Below are positions 45,379-58,880 of a stretch of DNA of 64,000 bases, in pieces (the first letter of the stretch is position 1; the number at the start of each line of letters is the position of its first letter). The position numbers were made by a program, and so were the translations under genes. The notes under the pieces were generated by a model that searched no databases, was not told the DNA's origin, and worked only from the letters and a program-made list of their open reading frames with translations. The DNA comes from Chloroflexota bacterium (GTDB lineage Bacteria; Chloroflexota; UBA11872): contig JAJDZD010000046.1 of NCBI GenBank assembly GCA_022824865.1, positions 62,001 through 126,000 of the forward strand, in the 5' to 3' direction.

Positions 45379-46064
45379 TTTTCCGCGTCGAAATCCTTCT
45401 GCGAGGCGGCCCAGGCCTCGATTCGAGTCTCGACAAGCGCCTGTGCGGCCTCGGGGCCTTTGGTGCGTAGCAGGTCATACAAACCTTCGGCACGTAGGCC
45501 CCGCCACAAACGCTCGCGTTCGACAAACGTATCCACCCGCTCCCGCACAAGCCGGCGCCAGGCCAGATAGTGCGCCAGGTGGTCTTCGATCTCCGGTCCA
45601 TAGCGTTGCGCCAGGTCGTCTTTGAGCGCGCCCGTGAAGCCGGGACTGGCGCCGCCGCTGTTCACGGCGATCGAGATCGCCCCATGCTTCACATATGCCG
45701 AGGCGAAGAAGTCGCAATGCGCTGGGTCGTCCACCACGTTCACCAGCAGCCCGAGGTCACGGGCGTCGGCCTCGATGGCGTAGTCAACCAACCGGTCGCC
45801 AGTCGCAATGATCGCAACGCGATGCCCATTGAGGTCTGACGGCGCATACGACTGGCGCCTGAGCCGAATCTCCCCAGCGTCGCTCATGTCCCGCAGCCGC
45901 TGGTCGAACGGGTCGGCAAAGTCCGGCGGGGCGATCACCGTGGTCGCCACGCCAAAGTCCGCCAGCAAGCAGGCTTTGAAGTACGCCGCCTCGCCCGTGC
46001 CAACCACCACGGCCGACTGCCCCTGAAGATTCAGAGCGACAGGAAGATACGTACGTCCGCTCAT
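45375..46064 (-). CDS. Precorrin-2 dehydrogenase/sirohydrochlorin ferrochelatase-like protein
   Basis: 229 residues of the CysG-N/Met8 type: YLPVALNLQGQSAVVVGTGEAAYFKACLL (NAD site; the usual glycine pattern is slightly altered), ATGDRLVDYAIEADAR, and the active-site region LLVNVVDDPAHCDFFASAYV with ISIAVNSGGASPG. It oxidises precorrin-2 and may insert iron to make siroheme. No other siroheme or sulfite/nitrite reductase gene is in the window. Confidence 0.85.
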   Translation of the reverse strand: MSGRTYLPVALNLQGQSAVVVGTGEAAYFKACLLADFGVATTVIAPPDFADPFDQRLRDMSDAGEIRLRRQSYAPSDLNGHRVAIIATGDRLVDYAIEADARDLGLLVNVVDDPAHCDFFASAYVKHGAISIAVNSGGASPGFTGALKDDLAQRYGPEIEDHLAHYLAWRRLVRERVDTFVERERLWRGLRAEGLYDLLRTKGPEAAQALVETRIEAWAASQKDFDAEN

Positions 46065-49957: not shown

Positions 49958-50560
49958 TCACGCGAGTGCGAGGAGCGTGTCTACGAATATCTTGGCACAT
50001 GGAGATGCGGTGGTGACTTTTTCCGGATCCAGACTGGCCAGGATTTCGAAGCTGTGCCGGCTCTTGTGGTAGCGGCCTCTTGTGGTGGCTCGGGTAGCCC
50101 GTTCAAGACCGCTGAGGACGTCTTGCTTGGGGACCTGTTCGATCTGCCTGGGATTGCCCGGCAGCGCATTTGGCCGGAACCCTTGCTGGTAGAAGTTAGC
50201 TAGCGCCTTGCGATCCGCGAGAAACCAGGATTCCATGACCTGGACCATGAGGTGGCATTGGTCGTTTGTTGCGCCAGTTGGGCGGGGCCAGGAGTCGCGC
50301 GTGTTCAGGTGAGTCCACGAGTTCTGAGCTGTGACCGGGGCTTCGGCATCGACCAGGAGCACGGCGATTCGAGTTCCTCTTTCGTGCGCTGTCTTGAAAG
50401 CGTCGTAGGCCTGCTGGCGGCCTCCGGCCGCCTCAATGCTGGGCAGTTTGCCTGCGAGGCCGGCCTCTTCGAGGAATGTCGCGAACGCTCGGCGGCACTC
50501 CCGATTCAGAGATTTCGACTTTCTATCGCCGCCGCCCTCAACGATGAGCTTGACGCTCAC
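49958..50560 (-). CDS. DUF4276 TOPRIM-like protein, partner of the AAA ATPase
   Basis: 200 residues. The family is recognised from KLIVEGGGDRKSKSLNRECR, IEAAGGRQQAYDAF, TGATNDQCHLMVQVMESWF and FRPNALPGNPRQIEQVPK. The N-terminus fits a TOPRIM fold: Glu8 in VEGGGD and the Asp71-x-Glu73 pair in VLLVDAEAPV are placed like the metal ligands of OLD-type nucleases. Its ATG overlaps the TGA of the ATPase gene by four bases, so the two are translated together. A nuclease effector is inferred. Confidence 0.85.
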   Translation of the reverse strand: MSVKLIVEGGGDRKSKSLNRECRRAFATFLEEAGLAGKLPSIEAAGGRQQAYDAFKTAHERGTRIAVLLVDAEAPVTAQNSWTHLNTRDSWPRPTGATNDQCHLMVQVMESWFLADRKALANFYQQGFRPNALPGNPRQIEQVPKQDVLSGLERATRATTRGRYHKSRHSFEILASLDPEKVTTASPCAKIFVDTLLALA

Positions 50561-51750
50561 CAGCGATTGCCGCCGATGTGACCGCTGGTCCAGATTTCGC
50601 CGAGGCGATATTTCTCAAGCCAGGGTTTGAGTTCCTCGGCGTTGAGCCGTTGGAGTTGGGTGGCGCCTTCGGATTTTTCGCAGACGATGATGGCCTCGGG
50701 CGTGTCCGAGAGGGCGTCAACAAGGATGTCGGAGTGGGTGGTGACAACTAGTTGGGTGCGGGTGGAGGCTTCGAGAAGGAGCTTGGCGACTTGCGAGATT
50801 ATGTCCGGGTGCAGGCCAAGTTCCGGTTCTTCGAGGCAGATGACGGGTGGGGGGGCGGGATGACAGAGGACCGAGAGTAGGCAGAGGTAGCGAAGCGTTC
50901 CGTCAGAGAGACGAGTGGCTGGTAAAGGATGGCGCAAGCTTGTTTCGTGAAAATATACTTGGACTCTCTGACCGCTTATGCTGGAGACAACATCCTCGAC
51001 CAATGGATTGAATACTCGGAATCGATCCATAATCTGTCTCTTTATCCCAGGACGATTTGAAAGATAGTTCATAACTAATGCGAGATTAGATGCATCCTCC
51101 AGTAAGTATTCTTGTTCGAGGTCAAAATCCTGAGGCTGACGAGGCAGAGAATTCGGGCCAAGATCCCATTCGCGATAGAAAGTAATGAGGTGAAACTGAT
51201 CGCCCAAGTAGGTCAACTCTGGGTATGTATCCGGGTCATTCCTCTGAGAAATAATCGACTGTTTACGATTCAATCTCCTGACGCGTCGTGTTGGTCTTGT
51301 AGTCTGCCCATCAGTGGCAATCGTAAGCACTGGCTCGCCGTCGTTATAGCGGTAATAGAACGTCACCTCATCATCGTCACTCTCGCAACGATGATCCTCG
51401 ACCGCTTCGTCCTGCAAATCAAAGCTCGTACCCGTCTCAGTAAAGGACAGAAGATATCTGAGTGGTATGGATCCTTTGGAGTTTTCGACCGTCGTAGCCA
51501 AGCTTGCTGTTCCGAGTTGACCAGCACCTTTCCAGAGCCATTCATGAATCCCACCCCCCTTGCGGATAGTCTCTTGCAGGTCGTGAGGTGTAGAGGCAAG
51601 GAGGGACAGAGCCTGGAGCACATTGGACTTGCCGGAGGCGTTGGGGCCGATGAGGACGTTGAGGGGTTCGAGCGGGAGTTCGGGGGTGTCGGGGCCGAAG
51701 GAGAGGATGTTCCGGAGGCGGATGGAGCGGAGGAAGCGTTTGCCGTCCAT
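50557..51750 (-). CDS. AAA-family ATPase of the OLD/RecF type
   Basis: 397 residues. Walker A IGPNASGKSNVLQAL at residues 34-48, signature-like RLSDGTLRYLCLL, Walker B VICLEEPELGLHP, and H-motif VVTTHSDILVDAL define an AAA15/AAA_21 ATPase with ABC-like head. The central 200 residues are variable. No TOPRIM domain follows the ATPase; instead the DUF4276 protein is encoded next. This is the organisation of split OLD or PARIS-like defence pairs (inference). A five-base gap free of promoter signals precedes only intergenic DNA upstream. Confidence 0.88.
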   Translation of the reverse strand: MDGKRFLRSIRLRNILSFGPDTPELPLEPLNVLIGPNASGKSNVLQALSLLASTPHDLQETIRKGGGIHEWLWKGAGQLGTASLATTVENSKGSIPLRYLLSFTETGTSFDLQDEAVEDHRCESDDDEVTFYYRYNDGEPVLTIATDGQTTRPTRRVRRLNRKQSIISQRNDPDTYPELTYLGDQFHLITFYREWDLGPNSLPRQPQDFDLEQEYLLEDASNLALVMNYLSNRPGIKRQIMDRFRVFNPLVEDVVSSISGQRVQVYFHETSLRHPLPATRLSDGTLRYLCLLSVLCHPAPPPVICLEEPELGLHPDIISQVAKLLLEASTRTQLVVTTHSDILVDALSDTPEAIIVCEKSEGATQLQRLNAEELKPWLEKYRLGEIWTSGHIGGNRW

Positions 51751-52250: not shown

Positions 52251-52452
52251 CGTCTTCCGAGGGCGTCTGCTCGCCATTCCGCCGGCCGTTGCGCACGCCG
52301 GCCGCAATCATCTCCAGGGTGACGATCGGCTCAGGGGGTGGAGGACGCTGTTTGACTCGGGAGACATCCGGATTGCGGCCGTGTTTCGCCAAGCCACCTC
52401 GAAAGATATGACCTTTAAGCCACGCAGAGTCTTTTCTGTCGCTATCAGCCAT
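52234..52452 (-). CDS. Small protein with RPPPPEP core (first paralogue)
   Basis: 72 residues: WLKGHIFRGGLAKHGRNPD, SRVKQRPPPPEPIV and an acidic tail (EDDDTSR). Same core as the next gene, so the two are tandem duplicates. ATG at 52452 overlaps the end of the DUF6338-like gene by eight bases, implying coupled translation and joint function. Function unknown; the Pro run and basic patch suggest a protein-binding tail. Confidence 0.55.
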   Translation of the reverse strand: MADSDRKDSAWLKGHIFRGGLAKHGRNPDVSRVKQRPPPPEPIVTLEMIAAGVRNGRRNGEQTPSEDDDTSR

Positions 52453-53245
52453 CAGACAGTTTCTCTTCCTGGCTGTGTCCCGACCCTCGGTGGGGAAACT
52501 CGATGTGGACATCCGACCCACCTTTAGCGAAGTAGAGCAGCGGAACAGCCCCAGTCTGTTGTCCTTCACTATCGTACATTATGACGTCTTTCAGCAACAA
52601 CTCCCGCATTTTGCCCGTCTCAGAGAAGATATGCACCCAACCAGCATATATGATTCCGCGCTTAAAATCTCTCACATGCACGTATTCGACTTCCTCCCCG
52701 GATGACGCGAATGTAAAGTCCCAGACATCTTCGTGATCGTATTTACTGGTTGCCTTCATCAGAAAAAGAAGTTTGTTTAGCAACTTGTAGTTTGCTATAT
52801 AGATCCAGACGATTGCCAGCACGAACGACAGCACGGCAGAAACTATGATCTCGTCTACGAATTCACCCCGCAACAACCGGGTGGAACCTGGGCCATCAAT
52901 GCCGAAGTCCGAGAAATCTCGCCCGAATACCCTGTAGCCTACATACGCTATTGCATATGTCGACATACCAAACAGAAAAGCTCTAATTACAAATTCCGCC
53001 TGCCCAGGCTTTTCTTTCGCTGCGTAGCGCGCATCAATCTGGGCCCAGATCAGGCCGGGCAGGAAGATGATGGCGAACTGAACGAGGATGATGTCGATGA
53101 GGGTCAGACCTTCGACTGATGCGGCGGCCGACAGTGTTGGGTCAATGCCGCGCCGTACAGGGAACTGCGCGCTGCGTCGAACCGCCCATCCCACGCTCTC
53201 TGCGCAATCCCCGTTCGGGGGATTGGCCCGGCCACTTGAGGCCAC
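52445..53245 (-). CDS. DUF6338-like membrane protein
   Basis: The secure part has about 220 residues from LTLIDIILVQFAIIFLPGLIW. It has an N-terminal hairpin helix with the FLPG motif, two further membrane segments (AFLFGMSTYAIAYVGY and IIVSAVLSFVLAIVWIYI), and a cytoplasmic tail with VWDFTFASSGEEVEYVHVRD and GWVHIFSE, which fit DUF6338. The start is uncertain: no canonical codon precedes LTLID closely (a CTG lies at 53107), while GTG 53194 and ATG 53245 add residues read from repeat-like DNA. Confidence 0.65.
   Translation of the reverse strand: MASSGRANPPNGDCAESVGWAVRRSAQFPVRRGIDPTLSAAASVEGLTLIDIILVQFAIIFLPGLIWAQIDARYAAKEKPGQAEFVIRAFLFGMSTYAIAYVGYRVFGRDFSDFGIDGPGSTRLLRGEFVDEIIVSAVLSFVLAIVWIYIANYKLLNKLLFLMKATSKYDHEDVWDFTFASSGEEVEYVHVRDFKRGIIYAGWVHIFSETGKMRELLLKDVIMYDSEGQQTGAVPLLYFAKGGSDVHIEFPHRGSGHSQEEKLSDG
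53205..53225. other. Short perfect hairpin with CAATCCCC arms
   Basis: CAATCCCC, loop GTTCG, then GGGGATTG. It lies at the edge of the repeat-rich stretch and inside the doubtful N-terminal reading of the DUF6338-like gene, which argues against the longest start for that gene. Confidence 0.45.
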
Positions 53246-53887: not shown

Positions 53888-54736
53888 TCAGTAGGGGAGT
53901 TGGGTGGTTGGGTTGTCCTGGATGTAGTGGGCCTGGGCGACGCCGAAGTTTTCCTGGATCTGGAGGGAGTGGCCGCCGTCGACGACGAGGGTGTGGCCGG
54001 TGATGAAGGAGGCGTCTTCGGAGCAGAGGAAGGCGACGGCGGCGGCGATGTCCTGGGGGCGGCCGCAGCGGCCGACGGGGTACTGGGCTTCGAAGAACTC
54101 GTAGCCGGAGGGGTTGTCGTCCCAGATGCCGGCCTGGATGTTCTCGGTGACGATGTGGCCGGGGGCGATGGCGTTGACGCGGATGCCGTCCCGGCCGTAC
54201 TCGACCGCCATCTGTCTGGTGGCGGCGATGAGGGCGGCTTTGCCGGTCTCGTAGACGAGGGCGCCGGGAGCCACAAGCAGGCCGTGGATGCTGGAGATGT
54301 TGACGATGCTGCCGCCGCCGGCCCGGCGCAGGTGGGGCACGCCGAATTTGGCGGACAGGTAGCTGGCCTTGACGAGGACGGCCATGGCGCGGTCGTAGAC
54401 GTCGGGCGGGACGTCTTCGGCACCACCGGTCACGGCTTCCATGGCGGGGTAGGCGTTGTTGACGATGATGTCGAGGCGGCCCCACAGATCTACGGCGGCC
54501 TGGATCATGGCCTGGACCTGGTCGATTTCACCGACGTGGGTGGCGCGAGCGGCGGCGACGCCGCCGGTGGCCTGGATGCGGGCGGCGCGTTCTTCGGCGC
54601 CTTCAGCGTTGATGTCGGCGATGAGGACGGATGCGCCTTCGACTGCGAGGCGTTCGGCGATGGCACCGCCGATTCCGGTGGCGCCGCCGGTGACGACCGC
54701 TCCGCGGTCCTGGAATCGACCGGTTGCTGCTGTCAT
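53888..54736 (-). CDS. Short-chain dehydrogenase/reductase
   Basis: 282 residues of the classical SDR family: cofactor motif VVTGGATGIGGAIAERL, DINAEG after strand two (NAD preference), IIVNNAYP, catalytic Ser in SIVNISSIHG, and YETGK with the Tyr-x3-Lys pair. C-terminal VAFLCSEDASFITGHTLVVDGG is typical. ATG at 54736 was chosen. Substrate unknown. It lies downstream of the Imm-Mrr gene on the same strand. Confidence 0.9.
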   Translation of the reverse strand: MTAATGRFQDRGAVVTGGATGIGGAIAERLAVEGASVLIADINAEGAEERAARIQATGGVAAARATHVGEIDQVQAMIQAAVDLWGRLDIIVNNAYPAMEAVTGGAEDVPPDVYDRAMAVLVKASYLSAKFGVPHLRRAGGGSIVNISSIHGLLVAPGALVYETGKAALIAATRQMAVEYGRDGIRVNAIAPGHIVTENIQAGIWDDNPSGYEFFEAQYPVGRCGRPQDIAAAVAFLCSEDASFITGHTLVVDGGHSLQIQENFGVAQAHYIQDNPTTQLPY

Positions 54737-54783: not shown

Positions 54784-55722
54784 TCAGCCGGCCAAGCTGA
54801 GGTAGTGGACGGGGGCGAGGCCGGATTGGGTGCGCCATTGGTTGAAGGTCATGCCGTCGATGAGGAAGAGGCGGTCTTTCATGGTTCCGCTTTCGATCAT
54901 GCGCTGGGCGTCGTCGGAGAAGTTGCCGGTGGTGATGAGGTAGGCGCGTTGGGCTCCGTGAAGCGACATGGATCCGAGGAGGTCGCTTACGGCCCGGTAC
55001 TCGACGGCCTCGTCATGCGACTGCAGCTGGCACTGCACGATTGCCGAGGGTCGGGATTGATCGCCGCCGGATTGGAAGGTCTTGATGTCGATTCCGCGGC
55101 TGGAAGCATCGTCCGCGATCTGGACGTCTTCGTCATCGAAGCGGCGTTCAAGGGTTTCGGCGACTACGCGTTCGAACTGGCTGGGCACGACGACGTAGAG
55201 GGCCTCGCCCTGGTACTCGGGCTGGACCTCGGGCACCGGGGCCGTCTCAGTCTCGGGTTCGGGCTCGGGTTCGGAATCCTCGGCAATCGGGGGCTGACGT
55301 TCCTGTTGTTGAAGGCTTTGCTGTTGTTCGGTCAGGGCCGCCAATCTCTCCTCGTACTCGGCCTTGAGGCGATCGAGTTCAGCCTGACGTTGGGCAAGTC
55401 CGTCGTCTCGCGGCGACGCACGCGACCTGACCAGTTCGAGTTGCGCACGATGTTTGCGGCGCACCTCTTTCAACTCGGTCTCGTGACTGCCCTTCAGCGC
55501 CTCGACGGTCAAGGCTTGATTGGCTTGCAGCTGCTCGATGCCTTCTCGCGAAAGCGACATATAGAGGGCAATAAACCAACAAATCACCGTCCAGCCCAGG
55601 AAGAAATTAAGCGCGACCACCATTGTCTTTTCGCGATGAATCTTGGTGGAAACTATGATTGTTGGAAGAAAATACAGAACAATTATTGCGATAACCGTAA
55701 AGAAGCCGCCGATACCTTCCAC
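54784..55722 (-). CDS. Superinfection-immunity membrane domain fused to an Mrr-like nuclease domain
   Basis: 312 residues. Residues 1-57 form two membrane helices with IVLYFLPTIIV and LNFFLGWTVICWFIALYMSL, the pattern of the Imm superinfection-immunity family. Residues about 60-140 are a coiled coil, 142-172 an acidic Glu/Pro linker (EPEPEPETETAPVPE). Residues about 178-300 resemble the Mrr_cat restriction domain: FERVVAETLERRF, SRGIDIKTF (catalytic Asp place), IVQCQLQSHDEAVEYRAV, AYLITTGNFSDDAQ and LFLIDGMTF. The usual Gln-x-Lys reads Gln-Cys-Gln, so cleavage may be lost or changed. It sits 38 bp downstream of uvrA. Confidence 0.75.
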   Translation of the reverse strand: MEGIGGFFTVIAIIVLYFLPTIIVSTKIHREKTMVVALNFFLGWTVICWFIALYMSLSREGIEQLQANQALTVEALKGSHETELKEVRRKHRAQLELVRSRASPRDDGLAQRQAELDRLKAEYEERLAALTEQQQSLQQQERQPPIAEDSEPEPEPETETAPVPEVQPEYQGEALYVVVPSQFERVVAETLERRFDDEDVQIADDASSRGIDIKTFQSGGDQSRPSAIVQCQLQSHDEAVEYRAVSDLLGSMSLHGAQRAYLITTGNFSDDAQRMIESGTMKDRLFLIDGMTFNQWRTQSGLAPVHYLSLAG

Positions 55723-55760: not shown

Positions 55761-58709
55761 TCAGGCTGGCGCGACAGCCTTGGCCTCCGTGGATTGTGGC
55801 GAAGTCGATTCGGGCCGGACATCCGGCGATGCCGGGCCGGCGGTCCGGCCGTTGCGCGAGGGGCGGCGGGGACGGTCGCCGGGGGCGAGGACGCGCTGGA
55901 GGTATTGGCCGGTGTAGCTGTCGGGTTTGGCGGCGACGTCTTCGGGGGTGCCTTCGGCGATGAGTTCGCCGCCGGCGTCGCCGCCTTCGGGGCCCAGGTC
56001 GATGATCCAGTCGGCGGACTTGATGACGTCGAGATTGTGTTCGATGACGATGACGGTGTTGCCGGCGTCGGCGAGGCGCTGGAGGACCTGGATCAGTTTG
56101 CGGGTGTCGGCGAAGTGGAGGCCGGTGGTTGGTTCGTCGAGGATGTAGACGGTTTTGCCGGTGGCGCGCTTGGAGAGTTCGGAGGCGAGCTTGATGCGCT
56201 GGGCTTCGCCGCCGGAGAGGGTGGTGGCGGGCTGGCCGAGGCGGATGTAGCCGAGGCCGACATCGACGAGGGTGCCGAGCTTGCGCTCGATGGACGGAAT
56301 GTTCTGGAAGAAGGCGTGGGCGTCTTCGACGGTCATGGCGAGGACGTCGGCGATGGTCTTGCCCTTGTAGGTGATGTCGAGGGCTTCACGGTTGTAGCGG
56401 GCGCCCTCGCAGACCTCGCAGTTGACGTAGACGTCGGGCAGAAACTGCATCTCGATGCGGTTGAGGCCCTGGCCCTCGCAGGCTTCGCAGCGGCCGCCCT
56501 TGACGTTGAAGGAGAAGCGGCCGGGTTTGTAGCCGCGGGCGCGGGATTCGGGGACGGCGGCGAACAAGTCGCGGATGGGGGTGAAGGCGCTGGTGTAGGT
56601 GGCGGGGTTGGAGCGGGGCGTGCGGCCGATGGGGGATTGGTCGATCTCGATGGCTTTGTCGATGTGTTCAAGGCCGCGGATGCGGGAGTGCTCGCCGGGG
56701 ACGTTGCGGCTGCCCCAGATGCGCTGGGCAAGGGCGCGGTAGAGCACGTCCTCGACAAGGGTGCTCTTGCCGGAGCCGGAGACGCCGGTGACGCAGATGA
56801 AGCAGCCGAGGGGGAACTGGACGTAGAGGGACTTGAGGTTGTTGGCGCGGACGCCTTCCAGGGTGAGGTTGGCGCCGTTGCCGGAGCGGCGGGCGATGGG
56901 AACGGGAATGTGTTCGCGGCCGGCGAGGAAGTCGCCGGTGAGGGAGTGGGGGTTGCTTTCAATCTGGTCGGGCGTGCCCTCGGCGACAACCGTACCGCCG
57001 TGTTCGCCGGCGCCGGGACCGATATCGATGACCCAGTCGGCGGAGCGGATGGTCTCTTCGTCGTGCTCGACGACCATGACGGTGTTGCCGAGGTCGCGCA
57101 GGCCCTCAAGGGTGCGGACGAGGCGGGCGTTGTCGCGCTGGTGAAGGCCGATGCTGGGCTCGTCGAGGATGTACATGACGCCGACGAGGCCGGAGCCGAT
57201 CTGGGTGGCCAGACGGATGCGCTGGGCCTCTCCGCCCGAGAGGGTGCCGGCGGAGCGTTCGAGGGTGAGGTACTCAAGGCCGACGGCTTCGAGAAAACCG
57301 AGGCGGGCGTTGATTTCCTTGAGGACCTGCACGGCGATGGTGGCGTCGCGCCGGCTGAGCTCGAGGCCGGTGAAGAATTGCGCGGCGGCCTGGATCGTCA
57401 TGGCGGTGGCGTCGTGGATGGAACTGCCGCCGATGGTGACGGCCATTGACTCGGGTCGCAGCCGCGCGCCCAGGCAGACGGGGCACATGCGGCGGGTCAT
57501 GTAGCGCTCGATTTCGCCGCGGATGTACTCGGACTCGGTGTTTTCGTAGCGGCGGCGGAGGTTGGGGATGACGCCTTCGAACTCGAACTCGTAGGCGCGG
57601 CGGCGGCCGGCGGCGTTGGTGTACTGGACAACCAGGGGCTGGCCGGGCGCGCCGTAGAGGATGACGTCGACGATGGCGGGGTCGAGACGCTCGACCGGAG
57701 TGTTGGTGCGGAAGCCGTACTTGCGGGCGAGGGATTCGATGACGTGGCGGGTGAGGGAGGTCTCGCGGGTGTGGGCCTTGACCCAGGGGGCGATGGCGCC
57801 CTGGGAGATGGAGAGGCTGCGGTTGGGAATGATGAGGGCGGGATCGAGTTCGAGCTTGGAGCCCAGGCCGTTGCAGTCGGGGCAGGCGCCGTGGGGGGTG
57901 TTGAAGGAGAAGAGGCGGGGTTCGAGGTTGGCGAGGCTGACGTGGCCGTTCTTGCAGGCCAGGCGCTCGCTGAGGGTTAGCTCGTCGCCGTCGACGATCT
58001 GGATGGTGACGAAGCCTTCGCCCAACTGGAGCGCAGTTTCCAGCGAGTCGGCGAGGCGCATACGGGAGTCGGGCTTGGGCGTGAGGCGGTCGACGACGAT
58101 GTCGATGTCGTGCCAGAGGTTGCGGTCGAGATCGGGGACGTCGTCGAGCGGAACGACCTGGCCGTCGACGCGGGCGCGGACGAAGCCGGCGCGGCGGGCG
58201 TCGTCAAACACGCCCTTGTGCTCGCCCTTGCGGTGAATGATGACGGGGGCGAGGACCATGAAGCGGGTGTCCTCGTCCCAGTCGAGGATGAGGTCGACCA
58301 TTTCCTGGATGGTCTGGGAGGACAGCGGCTCGCCGCAGGTGTGGCAGTGGGGCTGGCCGATGCGCGCCCAGAGGAGGCGCATGTAGTCGTAGATCTCGGT
58401 GACGGTGCCTACGGTGGAACGGGGGTTGTGGGAGGTAGCTTTCTGGTCGATGGAGATGGCCGGGGAGAGGCCCTCGATCTGGTCGACGTCCGGCTTCTCG
58501 AGCTGGCCGAGGAACTGGCGGGCGTAGGCGGAGAGGGACTCGACGTAGCGGCGCTGGCCTTCGGCGTAGAGGGTGTCGAACGCGAGGCTGGACTTGCCGG
58601 AGCCGGAGATGCCGGAGATGACCACGAGCTTGTTGCGGGGGATCTCAAGGTCGATGTCCTTGAGATTGTGTTCCCGCGCGCCGCGGATGACGATGGAGGA
58701 GTCGGCCAT
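55761..58709 (-). CDS. uvrA: Excinuclease ABC subunit A
   Basis: Damage-sensing ATPase of nucleotide excision repair. 982 residues: first ATP site [20 protein letters not shown], zinc module CHTCGEPL and [23 protein letters not shown], signature [16 protein letters not shown], second ATP site [16 protein letters not shown], zinc pair CEACEGQG and [25 protein letters not shown] and [13 protein letters not shown]. The last 40 residues are a Pro/Ser/Arg tail. ATG at 58709 is set by the [15 protein letters not shown] start. Confidence 0.97.
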
Positions 58710-58880
58710 AACAGTCCAGCTTAAGCGATTGGGGCTCGGGCTGTTGGCGGCGGGCAATTGCGTCGCGGGTCACTTTGAGTTTCGGGTGGCGCGCAGCGGC
58801 GGCGTAAACGGCGGTCGAGGGGATCGGACGAGACCGCGGGCGGGCACCCGGCGGCGGAAATTGGTGGGGGTGAAGGGGGG

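Follow-up and report, generated by a model that had tools for sequence, protein, structure and literature searches.

Gene, domains and genomic site

The window, a 64,000-nucleotide stretch of DNA from an uncultured Chloroflexota genus, contains an open reading frame with a GTG start and a 312 aa product. A likely ribosome site, AGAAAGGA, was read by eye ahead of the start codon. The gene, the parts of its product and the two flanking genes are listed below by their coordinates in the window.

54784..55722, minus strand: whole gene, encoding an Imm_superinfect two-helix domain, a helical/coil region, an acidic linker and an Mrr_cat domain (ORF and Pfam)
55552..55677, minus strand: Imm_superinfect (PF14373), residues 16-57 (Pfam, phrog_1039 and hydropathy)
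55294..55551, minus strand: helical, probably coiled-coil region, residues 58-143, the core of the hypervariable block (model helices and pair comparisons)
55207..55293, minus strand: acidic Pro/Glu-rich linker, residues 144-172, of differing length among relatives (sequence and alignment)
54835..55185, minus strand: Mrr_cat (PF04471), residues 180-296, with a PD-(D/E)xK-type fold (Pfam, model and Foldseek)
55087..55089, minus strand: codon of the catalytic Asp (D212 of GID), retained in the window copy (alignment)
55027..55029, minus strand: codon at the Lys position of QxK, Gln (Q232) in the window copy (alignment)
55761..58757, minus strand: uvrA, directly upstream of the fusion gene with a 38-base gap (ORFs and relatives' loci)
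53888..54736, minus strand: short-chain dehydrogenase, directly downstream of the fusion gene, its start set at an internal ATG (ORFs and relatives' loci)

A preliminary description of this DNA had read the frame as a fusion of an Imm membrane domain with an Mrr-like domain, and the profile searches bear this out. In the window protein, Imm_superinfect scores 46.9 bits against a Pfam cut-off of 27.9 and Mrr_cat scores 53.9 bits against a cut-off of 21. The two domains give separate matches above cut-off in all nine full-length copies that were recovered, and the motifs quoted earlier are present in the frame in Mrr_cat order. Misassembly joining two genes was rejected, since 9/9 copies have intact full-length frames. 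An NCBIfam scan of the window protein returned only matches far below their cut-offs, and a PDB sequence search with this single protein gave nothing significant (best E 0.28). Between 53800 and 56000, no promoter-like site was found, and the single terminator-like match lies on the other strand, where shuffled sequences give as many.

The nine copies are carried by 8 of the 13 genomes of the window's genus, and the other five genomes have no fusion gene. In a search of 400 genomes of the phylum, which included this genus and scored at most five candidates per genome, the fusion was found in the window's genus only. A general genome contig collection yielded seven loci, in Chloroflexi/Chloroflexota MAGs, with search patterns drawn from the genus alignment; such patterns would miss a fusion that arose independently in another phylum. 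No full-length relative was detected among IMG/VR viral contigs. Phage and plasmid collections likewise gave no full-length match, and the rows listed cover one half of the protein each. Matches were obtained to 82 phage records, none of which holds 80% of the fusion protein, and the 20 that are listed cover query residues within 2-90. A prophage origin of the gene was rejected on the basis of the lack of a full-length viral or phage match and of its constant chromosomal site after uvrA.

This site is the same in 8/8 genomes carrying the fusion: The gene begins 38 bases after uvrA and is followed by the short-chain dehydrogenase, with extra genes between in two cases. The extra genes are a second fusion copy plus a small ORF in genome G005 and a small ORF in G012. 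The tandem fusion pair of G005 (L008:1501-3479) shows 66% and 54% identity to the window copy and a mutual dS of 0.91. At the G005 and G012 loci, a small charged protein of ∼170 residues with a CxxC motif is encoded between fusion and dehydrogenase (L041:11423-11929, with a second copy at L036:4141-4662); the L041 copy has no Pfam match.

Among the genomes without the fusion, three (G009, G011 and G003) have the dehydrogenase immediately after uvrA. In G002, uvrA is present and the dehydrogenase is not its neighbor in the stretch examined, and no uvrA was detected in G007 at the threshold applied. The sister genus has uvrA followed by a dehydrogenase homolog, with no fusion gene, in 5/6 genomes. 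The intact junction in these genomes therefore points to clean gain or loss of the gene at this position. The locus does not look like a mobile island, and no defense island at the site is common to the relatives.

Other features of the window lie farther from the gene. An AAA_21 (putative AbiEii-like) ATPase gene and then an overlapping DUF4276 gene occupy 49958-51750 on the minus strand, a pair that resembles a defense module. Beyond the dehydrogenase, 52445-53245 (minus strand) encodes a DUF6338-matching protein. The stretch that holds this gene has no ORF in common with the relatives' regions, and five relatives share a different block there. The GC skew flips from about -0.05 to +0.19 near position 46000, and no tRNA was found in the 64-kb window.

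The Mrr_cat domain and its catalytic residues

The C-terminal part was proposed to have PD-(D/E)xK topology, and structure prediction agrees. A model of the C-terminal 148 residues, built on 30 sequences that include 21 Mrr domains from elsewhere in the class, is confident (mean pLDDT 86.4, pTM 0.84). Its predicted order of helix, three strands, helix and strand is the core topology of this superfamily. A Foldseek search with the model places MspJI first (E 4.9e-5, TM by query 0.54) and EcoT38I and AspBHI at ranks 6-8, and MspJI is also the top match in a PDB sequence profile search (E 2.4e-11). Thus, MspJI and AspBHI are among the nearest solved structures by fold and profile. Both are modification-dependent restriction enzymes that are soluble and carry a separate DNA-reading domain. 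The full-length model, which draws on nine sequences, is poor (mean pLDDT 51, pTM 0.22) and therefore was left out of our fold claims; in this model, the coiled coil shows up as no more than long helices with moderate confidence.

As the preliminary description pointed out, the Lys of the QxK motif is replaced by Gln in the window copy (Q230-C231-Q232), whereas MspJI keeps QAK at the aligned place. Over the nine copies, this position is Lys in six, Gln in two (window and G010) and Ala in one (G012). The catalytic Asp is retained in eight copies and is Ala in G004. One canonical catalytic residue is missing in 4/9 copies, and both are kept in 5/9.

For comparison, 63 Mrr_cat matches were collected from 41 genomes of the class. 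Nine of these are the fusions, and 46 of the 54 others were examined. All 24 higher-scoring nonfusion matches have both Asp and Lys. Among 22 mostly weaker ones (including L033, L143 and L144), which were judged by eye, 17 keep both residues, and one (L170) has Arg in place of the Lys. Four weak-scoring matches from one genus, g8 (L163, L164, L168 and L169), have neither residue; they apparently form an inactive group of Mrr_cat relatives. In total, Asp is present in 42/46 and Lys in 41/46. Residue loss is commoner in the fusion than in the other Mrr_cat matches (4/9 versus 5/46, with rows that are not independent), and the five losses among the latter indicate that worn Mrr domains also exist elsewhere in the class and are not specific to the fusion.

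These counts strengthen the earlier suggestion that the window domain may bind rather than cut. The neighboring K214, two residues past the Asp, is Lys in eight copies and Arg in the ninth, and could be a migrated catalytic Lys standing in for the lost one. Loss of cutting is therefore uncertain. The Mrr core also gives a weak match, below cut-off, to the inactive REase family NA-iREase1 (PF22722; 23.7 bits, cut-off 27). Parallels to such domains are described in parts of the literature: Inactivated PD-(D/E)xK domains are retained, probably for nucleic-acid binding, according to a passage of PMC11090510, and inactive enzyme domains act as effectors in conflict systems according to one of PMC7159879.

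The domain is further distinguished by its charge. In the fusions it is Lys-poor and acidic, with a net charge of -3 to -9 and a median of -8. The median for 24 class relatives is 0 (Mann-Whitney p 9e-5, with nonindependent rows). One of the 24 relatives is more acidic still, at -11. This acidity does not favor DNA binding.

A hypervariable mosaic between two ordinary neighbors

Both the Imm and the Mrr part of the protein are under purifying selection despite the residue losses. Among the pairs listed, dN/dS is 0.08-0.41 for the Imm part, where one pair has no synonymous change, and 0.08-0.28 for the Mrr part. The window and G010 copies, both with Gln, have a value of 0.08 for the Mrr part. 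These data bear on the idea that the gene is a decaying restriction gene without present function. Such decay might be read from the loss of catalytic residues in four copies and from the absence of the gene in 5/13 genomes of the genus. We consider it highly improbable, because the nine frames are intact and full-length, all but three of the last 24 residues are invariant, and the Imm and Mrr parts have dN/dS ratios of about 0.1-0.3 for nearly all pairs listed, including the pair that has no Lys. Simple neutral decay was rejected on the basis of these low ratios.

Between its two ordinary neighbors, the fusion gene is a hypervariable mosaic. When the window copy is aligned with those of G001, G004, G006 and G012, which are related rows rather than independent ones, identity is 90-97% in the first 200 bases, drops to 54-67% in the 300 that follow, and recovers to 71-80% at bases 500-700 and 87-97% at bases 700-900. 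In the same four pairs, dS of the stalk and linker is 1.5-1.9, a value that gaps in the stalk alignment can inflate, whereas dS is 0.22-0.23 for uvrA and 0.21-0.28 for the dehydrogenase. The clustering of synonymous differences within the gene was matched by 0/2000 shuffles of codon positions in each of these four related pairs. Clustering is weak between the window and G010 (37/2000 shuffles).

No clustering within the gene was observed against G008 or the two G005 copies, G005a and G005b (911, 495 and 596 of 2000 shuffles, respectively), because here the whole gene has diverged (dS 1.22-1.67) and its neighbors have not. Against G008 and G005a, for example, dS is 1.45-1.67 for the fusion gene, 0.24-0.25 for uvrA and 0.29 for the dehydrogenase, and the gap-free Imm and Mrr parts still give 1.1-1.5. 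In 30 comparisons of five neighboring genes, dS is ≤0.51 in 29 and 0.95 in the remaining comparison, which sets a gene close to the end of L034 against G010. Raised divergence is therefore not unique to the fusion gene. The uvrA tree groups G012 with G005, G008, G009 and G011, whereas the Imm part of the fusion places G012 nearer the window group. This discordance, together with the mosaic identity, is as expected from exchange of alleles by recombination. Recombining alleles fit genes involved in an arms race or in recognition, and the hypervariability also fits surface or kin-recognition genes.

The contrast with uvrA also informs a proposal based on the position of the gene. The product might be a partner of UvrA in genome maintenance, co-transcribed with uvrA and tethering DNA to the membrane in the manner of RmuC. 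The 38-base spacing and the downstream dehydrogenase, each found in 8/8 genomes, would fit this role, and RmuC offers a precedent in that it combines a predicted N-terminal membrane helix with a PD-(D/E)xK-superfamily domain, as described in a passage of PMC10270631. However, uvrA is nearly invariant and the fusion gene is a fast mosaic. In addition, 3/5 genomes of the genus without the fusion keep uvrA beside the dehydrogenase, so uvrA does not need the fusion gene, and a Pfam scan of the window protein found no match to RmuC (PF02646) up to E 10. On this evidence, a partnership with UvrA is unlikely.

Membrane module and proposed function

In the N-terminal part of the window protein, residues 6-24 and 35-53 each form a hydrophobic stretch, and residues 5-74 match the PHROGs family phrog_1039, 'immunity to superinfection' (E 1.3e-17). 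T4 Imm, a member of the same family group (PF14373, phrog_1039) that has the two-helix membrane domain in common with the fusion, blocks phage DNA entry. It is conceivable that the fusion is an entry blocker of this type, in which the two-helix domain would act on DNA translocation and the Mrr domain would be accessory. The profile match and the 82 matching phage records speak for such activity. However, T4 Imm proper is a small stand-alone phage protein, whereas the fusion is encoded by a larger chromosomal gene, and the distribution of the domain in the phylum makes this reading improbable.

PF14373 is present in 49 of the 400 phylum genomes, in 48 of them above cut-off. Of the 58 listed rows that are not fusions, 41 are open frames no longer than 130 codons. 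A Pfam scan of five longer ones gave TPR repeats in L145, fn3 in L147 and DUF2510 in L107, and no family match for the long N-terminal parts of L146 and L148. Readings of L146 and L148 by eye as FecR-like and FN3-like were unsupported by Pfam. The domain is thus mostly a short stand-alone protein that is also joined to unrelated domains, and its presence does not carry T4 Imm function. Its sequence distribution is that of a general membrane module in Chloroflexota. The Imm label by itself does not support a function in blocking DNA entry. By profile score, the N-terminal part is more than generic helices, but in the phylum it behaves as a generic membrane module.

A stand-alone Imm frame of 87 codons occurs in five genomes of the genus (L009, L010, L014, L029 and G005:C60) and is 41-45% identical to the N-terminus of the fusion. 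This frame is a possible source of the fusion's anchor.

More generally, when Pfam labels a protein of a cellular genome 'superinfection immunity protein', this does not indicate phage exclusion. A passage of PMC5900883 reads Imm_superinfect genes of Acidobacteria as immunity genes left from decayed prophages, and the Chloroflexota data suggest caution over this interpretation.

Charge was used to assess on which side of the membrane the Mrr domain resides. In 9/9 fusion copies, the interhelical loop is more basic than the 15-residue stretch past helix 2. The same comparison in 36 other Imm frames gives 24 for, eight ties and four opposite. By the positive-inside rule, a basic loop would place the stalk and Mrr domain outside. 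On the other hand, the 50 residues past helix 2 are net positive in 8/9 fusion copies, which argues against this placement. The simple charge counts around the helices, a weak predictor, tentatively favor a location outside the cytoplasm.

If the domain were displayed in this way, then the protein might be a surface-exposed recognition protein rather than a nuclease, with the stalk and a worn Mrr-fold head serving outside the cell as a variable binder. It could serve in phage adsorption, in kin recognition or in the capture of external DNA by binding. The charge comparisons, the acidic and Lys-poor domain and the hypervariable alleles are all consistent with this explanation. So are L107 and L146, where a secreted-looking N-terminal part before the module would, by eye, put the basic loop inside. 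Nevertheless, charge counting is weak, the positive residues past helix 2 disfavor export, and Asp and Lys are both kept in 5/9 copies. A PD-(D/E)xK fold is not known to us from any surface receptor. A surface protein of this kind, and likewise any of these targets, seems rather unlikely to us.

Membrane-anchored Mrr proteins are already known, as is the arrangement seen in ShdA of the Shield system. Passages of PMC10270631 describe ShdA as a membrane-bound protein with a PD-(D/E)xK-superfamily domain that is alone sufficient for immunity, is DNase-active in vitro and brings DNA to the cell edge, and a passage of PMC11090510 describes its long coiled coil. The fusion resembles ShdA in having a predicted N-terminal membrane anchor followed by a C-terminal domain of this superfamily. 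The two differ in that the C-terminal domain of ShdA is RmuC (PF02646; about 520 residues), whereas the window fusion combines an Imm anchor with an Mrr_cat domain that lacks the Lys.

Similar architectures were sought among other proteins. The Thauera plasmid protein WP_096453017.1 has N-terminal hydrophobic stretches (two, by eye) and Mrr_cat, as in the fusion, but it carries a zinc ribbon and does not match Imm_superinfect at E 1e-4. Hydropathy was checked in 26 further Mrr frames of the class: L132 and L136 show hydrophobic helices ahead of the Mrr domain and are likened to the fusion on that basis alone; L116 has hydrophobic stretches only far upstream, in a frame without a set start. Unlike the window copy, WP_096453017.1, L132 and L136 all retain QxK. 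The best PADLOC match of the window protein is PDC-S02 (E 4.8e-10), a family whose system is itself a candidate, and it is the top match of the 8/8 other copies as well. PDC-S02 aligns with the Mrr part in all nine copies, and in some with part of the stalk or linker. The matches start beyond the first 40% of the profile, and that of the window protein spans positions 213-336 of 390. A Pfam scan of the window protein found no NACHT domain. Among the open-access papers listed by literature searches, none on a fusion of Imm_superinfect with Mrr_cat appeared. The novelty lies in the Imm module as anchor, in the mosaic of alleles and in the missing Lys.

The explanation that we favor, though tentatively, is that the gene encodes an envelope-anchored, diversifying defense protein of the ShdA type directed against phage or other incoming DNA. 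The product would be a chromosomal single-gene membrane protein anchored by the two-helix Imm-type module, and the helical stalk probably drives oligomerization. The Mrr/MspJI-like head would then recognize a ligand near the membrane, most likely DNA or another product of infection. Copies that have both D and QxK (5/9) may cut, whereas the window copy, with Gln, more likely binds and holds its ligand. The rapid mosaic exchange of alleles at one site is best read as an arms race, which makes defense the most likely role. Patchy presence in the genus, the tandem pair in one genome and the PDC-S02 best match also count for defense. Against it count the conserved site after a DNA-repair gene, the lack of a defense island common to the relatives, and the charge counts that place the Mrr domain outside the cytoplasm in 9/9 copies. 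Computation establishes the two domains, the predicted fold, the purifying selection, the mosaic, the constant site and the residue losses, whereas location in the membrane, oligomerization, the ligand and the part in defense are inferences.

A further possibility, which we regard as doubtful, is that the Mrr-fold head is membrane-displayed and catalytically dispensable, recognizing incoming DNA or phage at the envelope and holding it uncut, and that stalk and head are swapped by recombination beside uvrA. Equally doubtful is the likeness that this would imply between the swapping and that of variable immune or self-recognition receptors.

Evidence that membrane-anchored proteins of the PD-(D/E)xK superfamily, ShdA among them, defend cells is of recent date. 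In the collections searched, the fusion gene is confined to one genus and one site, exists in copies with and without the Lys, is under purifying selection and has exchanged its stalks. The question of whether such proteins need to cut or only to bind is therefore directly testable here.
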